A stretch of 64,000 nucleotides of DNA, from positions 806,001-870,000 of the forward strand of contig JAOSKR010000002.1 of the NCBI GenBank assembly GCA_027493545.1, in the 5' to 3' direction. The translations under genes and the position numbers were made by a program. The notes below the pieces were generated by a model, which was given only the letters and a program-made list of their open reading frames with translations, was not told where the DNA came from and searched no databases. Positions 30,563-36,513 of the stretch are shown here, piece after piece. The stretch is from Roseovarius sp. GTDB taxonomy: Bacteria > Pseudomonadota > Alphaproteobacteria > Rhodobacterales > Rhodobacteraceae. How positions within the stretch are numbered: position 1 is the first letter of the stretch; each line of letters opens with the position of its first letter.

Positions 30563-32078
<1,516 letters not shown>

Positions 32079-34852: not shown

Positions 34853-35559
34853 ATGACACCGGCCGGGCTGAGGATTGCAACCTATAACCTGCAGAAATGC
34901 GTCGGCATCGACATGCGCCGGCGGCCCGACCGCTCGCTCAGCGTGATCGCGGGGCTGGATGCGCAGATCGTGGTGCTGCAGGAGGCCGACAAGCGCCTGC
35001 CGCCTCGTCCCGCCGCCCTGCCCCTCGCGATGGCCGAGGCCGAGGGCTGGCGCATCCCGTCCTTCGGCGGCCCCGGCGGCTCGATCGGCTGGCACGGCAA
35101 CGCCATGCTGGTGCGCCCCGACGTGGCGCTGCGCGCCACCCGGCATATCGAACTGCCGGGGCTCGAGCCGCGCGGCGCGATCCTGGCCGAGTTCGACACC
35201 GCGCTGGGGCCGCTTCGGGTGGTGGGCGTGCATCTGGGGCTGGTGCGCCGGTTCCGCCTGTTGCAGATGGCCGCGATCCAGCGCCACCTGGCGCGGCTCG
35301 CGCCGATGCCGACGGTGCTGACCGGCGATTTCAACGAATGGCGCGGTGGCGCGGCGCTGGCGGCGGCGGCCGGCGACATCCGGTTCATTGCCACGCCGCC
35401 CAGCTTTCCCGCCCCGCGCCCGGTCGCCCGGCTGGACCGGATCGGGCTTTGCGGGGGCTGCGCAGCACCGCCACCGGCACGCTCACCGCCAAGCCCGCGC
35501 ACATCGCCTCCGACCACCTGCCGGTCTGGGCCGACCTGACGGCGGCAAAGACGCGGTGA
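34853..35559 (+). CDS. Endonuclease/exonuclease/phosphatase family protein (frameshift near 35455)
   Basis: LRIATYNLQKCVG, IVVLQEADKRL, TVLTGDFNEW; IASDHLPVWADL in a second frame. Confidence 0.85.
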
Positions 35560-35657: not shown

Positions 35658-35786
35658 ATGGACGTTCTGACCAGAGAAGGGCTGGACGACATTGACCTTG
35701 CCGCCGTGGCCGTCTTGGCGGTGCCCCTGTGGGCACTCCCCGCCGATCAGCGGACGACCGTAGCCGGGTTGTGCGAACACCCCTGA
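35658..35786 (+). CDS. Possible 42-aa ORF ahead of a terminator (low confidence)
   Basis: MDVLTREGLDDIDLAAVAVLAVPLWALPADQRTTVAGLCEHP*; about 30 bp before the terminator at 35815. Confidence 0.2.
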   Translation: MDVLTREGLDDIDLAAVAVLAVPLWALPADQRTTVAGLCEHP

Positions 35787-35814
35787 CGAACTCCAACGAC
35801 GAAGTGCCAACTAG

Positions 35815-35851
35815 CCCCGGTTCGCGTGCACCGACGCAACCGGGGTTTTTT
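35815..35851 (+). terminator. Rho-independent terminator
   Basis: CCCCGGTT-C-GCGT-GCACCG-ACGC-AACCGGGG followed by TTTTTT. Confidence 0.85.
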
Positions 35852-36366
35852 CAGTCGTCTTCGCTATCAAGGCGATCGAGCATTTCGATGATAAATGTTT
35901 TAAATCCTTCACCCCATTTTGTTGCGGATTTCATTTCTTCGACGGAAACGGCATCAACGGCCAAGTTTTCTTCGCCAGTCCGTTCAAATATTGCGAACAC
36001 GACAAAGCTGTCGTCTGCCGACAGATAACCGACGCAGTGCCCGTGGGCTATCTTGTTTCTTGGCTTCGAATACCGCTCGTAGAGTTTTTTGTGCTTCTTT
36101 AAGAGCTTGGTAGCTTCTTCCGTAGAATCGCGCCGTTTTATCAGACGGATCATTTCGGCGAGTTTCCCCGATCCGCTTTGTTTGCCAATGGTGTCGGCAG
36201 CTTTATGATACGGAAGCCCCATGACACGTGCCAGAAGCATCGCAAGCGCGCCGTCTAGCGTTCCCCAAGCAAGAACAAGGTCTAGCATCGCTTCGCGGTG
36301 CTTCGGGTTTAGAGAACGCTTAAAGTTCCCCGCTTTCAGTTCGCTGTTCAGCGTCATTTCGTCCAT
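35851..36366 (-). CDS. Hypothetical HEPN-like protein with Rx4H motif (RNKIAH)
   Basis: 171 aa, mostly helical by inspection; LYERYSKPRNKIAHGHCVGY; DNA visibly AT-richer than flanks. Confidence 0.6.
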   Translation of the reverse strand: MDEMTLNSELKAGNFKRSLNPKHREAMLDLVLAWGTLDGALAMLLARVMGLPYHKAADTIGKQSGSGKLAEMIRLIKRRDSTEEATKLLKKHKKLYERYSKPRNKIAHGHCVGYLSADDSFVVFAIFERTGEENLAVDAVSVEEMKSATKWGEGFKTFIIEMLDRLDSEDD

Positions 36367-36513
36367 GATCGCCCTTTCAGGTGTTCATGTCTTCGTGATC
36401 GCGCGGCGGACCTTCCGGAGCCATTCTTGCCCCAAAAAACCTTAGACAATGCTTAGGCAGAGTGCGGCGGATTTGGATTTATCAAGCAAAATCAATATCT
36501 TGCGGTGAGGAAA

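Follow-up and report, generated by a model that had tools for sequence, protein, structure and literature searches.

A low-GC one-gene islet encoding a candidate HEPN-like protein behind tRNA-Glu in Roseovarius sp.

The window analysed here, a 64,000-nucleotide stretch from Roseovarius sp. (contig JAOSKR010000002.1), harbours on its minus strand an open reading frame (35851-36366) that encodes a protein of 171 aa, LYERYSKPRNKIAHGHC. A first-pass annotation made from the letters alone had singled out this frame for its RNKIAH motif and had placed it about 150 bp past the 3′ end of a tRNA-Glu(TTC) gene. The coordinates, strand and sequence were recovered unchanged, and the gap was measured at 147 bp. 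Homology with a related locus, L002, delimits the islet around the gene, and its features are, in positions of the window:

35772-36513, no strand: islet of about 742 bp as delimited by L002 homology, running from the tRNA; GC 0.51 over 35781-36513
35815-35845, no strand: GC-rich hairpin past the stop codon, its plus-strand side bearing a T-run; L002 and L004 have a similar one
35851-36366, minus: HEPN-like coding sequence, 171 aa (open reading frame, homologs, dN/dS, model of pLDDT 85)
36043-36060, minus: codons 103-108, RNKIAH (R103 and H108 of Rx4H), at the end of model helix 93-108; R and H invariant in 7/7 sequences
36367-36513, minus: left end of the islet, 147 bp from tRNA 3′ end to start codon, aligned with its equivalent in five other loci
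36385-36398, minus: palindrome TCACGAAGACATGA, a degenerate version in the window; perfect TCACGNNNNCGTGA in L002, L003, L004 and L134
36440-36464, minus: conserved box CACTCTGCCTAAGCATTGTCTAAGG, common to L002 and, with changes, in L004
36514-36588, minus: tRNA-Glu(TTC), the islet site and the genome's only match to the tRNA-Glu pattern

The GC content of the gene is 49.8% as opposed to 67.9% across the window, and no 516-bp stretch of the 64 kb has a lower value; the remark that the gene is AT-richer than its neighbours thus extends to a minimum for the whole window at the gene's size. The dN/dS values were 0.08-0.17 for the window gene against five homologs and 0.08-0.19 over all pairs (six homologs), which identifies the frame as a real protein-coding one under purifying selection. 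Elsewhere in the window the reading frames of an IMP dehydrogenase-like gene (30588-32012) and of an endonuclease/exonuclease/phosphatase gene (34883-35559) appear broken, suggesting that the assembly contains indel errors.

When one genome from each of 85,462 species was scanned with a pattern, a method that detects close relatives only, four relatives appeared, in Pelagivirga, Roseovarius, Rhodovulum and Actibacterium, with identities of 64-83%. A profile search across 397 genomes of the family added L007 (70% identity) and a distant member, L008 (30%). The close relatives are then five, all in other Rhodobacteraceae, making six close copies with the window gene, and L008 is the seventh member. 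The distribution is rare and patchy: the gene was found in one of 36 same-genus genomes, in two of the 84 genomes searched of the Roseovarius-type genus (L002 and L003) and in three of 397 genomes family-wide. Among 387 genomes of the class there were no further credible members, a class-wide match (L068, E 0.003) having been dropped because its sequence is that of an ABC substrate-binding protein. The viral, phage and plasmid collections searched contained no relative of the gene.

All six close copies lie immediately on the 3′ side of a tRNA gene and in the same orientation. The upstream tRNA is tRNA-Glu in the window, L002 and L007, and tRNA-Ser(CGA) in L003 and L005. In L004 the gene adjoins a copy of the tRNA-Tyr 3′ end. 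This copy is the attR (CAGGGTCGCCCACCATT) of an 11.7-kb element that has an integrase and att repeats of its own and separates tRNA-Tyr from the copy; when this younger element is subtracted, the gene adjoins tRNA-Tyr as well. The element itself (L101:1430-13120, at tRNA-Tyr of Rhodovulum steppense) encodes an integrase, a capsid-protease, a portal protein, a terminase and a primase, the last two named from sequence without a library match, with no tail genes recognised, and looks like a capsid-forming phage satellite. L002 and L003 belong to the same genus and carry the gene behind different tRNAs (Glu and Ser, respectively), a situation that is not explained by a purely vertical history. Moreover, in the sister genomes L133 and L135 tRNA-Ser is followed by a small ORF and then rlmE, the gene being absent from these empty sites, and in L003 the gene is inserted between tRNA-Ser and the small ORF with rlmE (the names recJ, rlmE, metY, dppC and dppD were read from sequence). 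For the window no empty site could be derived from same-genus orthologs of the gene's two flanking genes, as these do not lie beside tRNA-Glu. The horizontal acquisition at a tRNA hotspot that had been proposed for the gene is well supported by its presence in so few same-genus genomes, by the three tRNA species occupied in related genera and by the empty sites.

The surroundings of the tRNA differ between genomes. recJ adjoins tRNA-Glu in L002, in L007 and in two same-genus genomes that were read; the window has no recJ, and in its segment 35560-36900 tRNA-Glu is flanked by a glycosyltransferase-like gene and an endonuclease, so that the tRNA-Glu neighbourhood in the window is rearranged. The anticodon stem of the window's sole tRNA-Glu (CCAGG/CCCGG) also contains an A.C mismatch, at which the 29 other same-genus tRNA-Glu genes listed have a pairing T. 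The mismatch may be either a real mutation or a sequencing error, and a tie between it and a neighbouring gene for a putative RNase is speculative.

At the left end of the islet an AT-rich box adjoins the tRNA, and the palindrome TCACGNNNNCGTGA sits about 100-120 bp from the tRNA. The same palindrome is found 105 bp past tRNA-Ser in L134, where the cargo is unrelated, and it may therefore mark a class of element ends and not this gene in particular, with one extra instance only. The L134 islet (L134:1575-2200) is likewise small, follows tRNA-Ser with an AT-rich start and has a cargo that resembles a secreted protein. Taken as an RNA hairpin, the palindrome of L002 and that of L003 fold, but the window version does not, which makes a DNA site likelier at this position. 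An integrase of its own was present in the islet of none of the loci inspected, that of L004 being the separate element's. At the far (right) end there was no direct repeat of the tRNA 3′ end of at least 9 bp, the longest common string being 5-8 bp, and integration by a tyrosine recombinase is for this reason a proposal only. No partner gene is conserved across the window, L002-L005, L007 and L008, no MNT nucleotidyltransferase lies beside the gene in these seven loci, and no other defence genes were recognised next to any copy. What the first-pass annotation had observed for the window, that neither integrase nor MNT antitoxin accompanies the gene, is therefore general to the loci inspected.

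HEPN domains are four-helix up-down bundles with an Rx4-6H motif, in which a polar residue (N, D or H) follows the R and which is placed at the end of helix-3; inserts are frequent between helices 2 and 3, helix-2 has a conserved acidic residue, often as Ex3[KR], and in Csx1 a beta-hairpin directly follows the motif (PMC3710099). Such a motif is easily come by: 60% of shuffled versions of the window protein hold Rx4-6H and 8.7% hold the stricter R[ND]x3-5H, and within the protein Rx4-6H matches three times. Given its frequency in shuffles, the motif alone is weak evidence. It becomes meaningful by being kept in all seven homologs, one of them at 30% identity. R103 and H108 did not vary in the alignment including L008, where R is followed by N or D, although about 80% of the columns vary and 34 are invariant; the R, the polar residue, the A and the H are all retained down to 30% identity.

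AlphaFold with five similar sequences gave an unusable model (pLDDT 47), while seven sequences, including the distant one, gave a usable one with pLDDT 85 and pTM 0.78, two of the five models being near pLDDT 52. The predicted structure has helices at 21-49, 53-61, 65-77, 83-91 and 93-108, strands at 109-115, 121-126 and 136-141, and a last helix at 142-170. The motif is thereby placed at a helix end and followed by strands, in agreement with the description of HEPN domains (PMC3710099). E71 in helix 65-77 is invariant and has a basic residue at +3, giving Ex2[KR] as against the usual HEPN Ex3[KR]. Searches with Pfam, NCBIfam, PADLOC and PHROGs profiles matched no described family, a sequence search of the PDB gave nothing above noise, and Foldseek against the PDB gave nothing convincing, with no HEPN structure among the 50 matches listed. 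A SigI match far below its cut-off and matches to DpdF, Lig_C and EAD2, with one member each, were regarded as noise. A viral fold match, A0A4Y5TZQ9 (prob 0.99, TM 0.56/0.59), was set aside; the phage 2L372D protein guessed for it has 159 aa and no motif. In the absence of a library profile match the protein is filed as HEPN-like and not under a named family. Of the earlier HEPN claim, the part that stands is the conserved motif and its position at a helix end in the model, while a known HEPN protein was retrieved by neither sequence nor fold search; on balance, conservation and model make it probable that the protein is HEPN-like. What is new is an undescribed HEPN-like family and the recurrent, integrase-less placement of a single gene behind three tRNA species.

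The best explanation overall, to which we give about an even chance, is that of a one-gene accessory islet at the tRNA-Glu 3′ end whose small HEPN-type protein acts as a stand-alone effector. The small HEPN-type domain, an assignment with moderate support from the model, would comprise helix-1 (21-49), helix-2 (about 65-77), helix-3 (93-108) ending in R103-N-x3-H108, the three-strand insert and helix-4 (142-170). Going by the HEPN RNases that have been characterised, the protein would most likely be dimeric and cut RNA without metal, with H108 activating the 2′-OH and R103 stabilising the intermediate. As no antitoxin gene lies alongside, the stand-alone effector would have to be held silent, either auto-inhibited or unexpressed, until a phage or another element triggers the RNase. 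A stand-alone anti-phage or anti-mobile-element role is weakly supported, and acting in defence or as a toxin is no more than plausible for the protein. Delivery was probably the work of tyrosine-recombinase elements aimed at tRNA 3′ ends; the islet would then be what is left of such an element after stripping, or a non-autonomous unit mobilised in trans.

A related account of delivery, which overlaps with this explanation and whose chances we place slightly short of even, takes the islet as the end piece left when larger prophages or islands decayed, the gene being the last tRNA-proximal cargo. tRNA 3′ ends are busy hotspots, and the 30 tRNA-Ser 3′ flanks taken from sister genomes had nothing in common in sequence, as a hotspot would predict, one of them having an ORF start that by eye resembles a phage integrase; in L004 a newer element has inserted ahead of the gene. 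On the other hand, no remnant of a common parent element was seen in six loci with three tRNA types, nor was an element carrying the gene found in the viral, phage and plasmid collections, and purifying selection indicates that the gene itself is not decaying.

The main rival to the RNase mechanism concerns function: the protein may have the HEPN fold and yet, in the manner of many MtlR-type HEPN proteins, bind RNA or regulate without being toxic, tuning a host process or silencing other elements. The lack of an antitoxin or partner at every locus would fit such a role, as would the position of the distant member, L008 (L008:1474-1986), which in G061 is flanked by dppC and dppD in an operon for a peptide ABC transporter and overlaps both neighbours by TGATG stop-start; co-production with transporter subunits, as this arrangement implies, would be odd for a lethal enzyme. 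In the sister genome G903, whose dppC is 98% identical to that of G061, the L008 gene is absent and a palindromic-repeat-rich spacer is found instead. However, inactive MtlR-type members have lost the catalytic motif (PMC3710099), whereas R and H are both kept in every member of the present family in spite of its variability, and we consider the regulatory alternative rather unlikely. That the protein is not HEPN at all, but an unrelated helical protein that carries an alpha-beta insert and uses RNxxxH structurally, would account for the matchless family-library and PDB fold searches and for the commonness of Rx4-6H by chance, but is quite unlikely in view of the motif's retention to 30% identity and its position where the long third helix ends.

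The boldest reading would be a non-autonomous cassette of one gene, its left end (AT-rich box and TCACGNNNNCGTGA) conserved, which the recombinases of other elements carry in trans to tRNA 3′ ends and whose cargo is an antitoxin-less HEPN RNase that possibly cuts tRNAs; in this full form it is a long shot. If the general explanation is true, the gene belongs to an undescribed HEPN-like family that escapes defence finders built on libraries, and single selected genes can spread among tRNA sites with neither an integrase nor a defence island in view. It then becomes testable how a solo HEPN protein stays harmless without an antitoxin, and what moves the islet.

In comparison with the HEPN superfamily (Anantharaman et al. 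2013, PMC3710099), the window protein shares an Rx4H motif that has N or D after the R and closes a long helix, an insert preceding the last helix and the character of a small mobile accessory gene. It differs in the three-strand insert right after the motif, in having no partner gene and in that no sequence relation to the HEPN families of Pfam, NCBIfam or PADLOC was detected. With HEPN-MNT toxin-antitoxin pairs such as SO_3166/SO_3165 (PMC4621449) it has in common a small HEPN-type protein with an R/H motif, but the seven loci of the window family have no MNT or conserved neighbour. The islet resembles the anti-phage cargo at phage and satellite hotspots (PMC9122126) and tRNA islands in being low in GC, patchy and located at a tRNA 3′ end, a kind of site that integrase-bearing elements also use (as in L004), but it consists of one gene, with no integrase or element genes and no recognisable right-hand att copy.

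A similar working model is that of DS-11 (CBS-HEPN) and DS-3 (PIN), single-protein RNase defence systems without an antitoxin; for DS-3 the cognate antitoxin is reported to be absent and the protein is presumed to be auto-inhibited until infection (PMC13092281). With such solo RNase defence proteins on record, a missing antitoxin is not fatal to the RNase reading. DS-11 carries a CBS sensor domain, whereas the 171-aa window protein has no separate sensor domain and is no more than a candidate for defence. With these systems it would share the single gene, the RNase-type active site and the lack of an antitoxin. Its placement as a one-gene islet behind different tRNA genes in a few related alphaproteobacteria makes the gene a good candidate for stand-alone phage defence.
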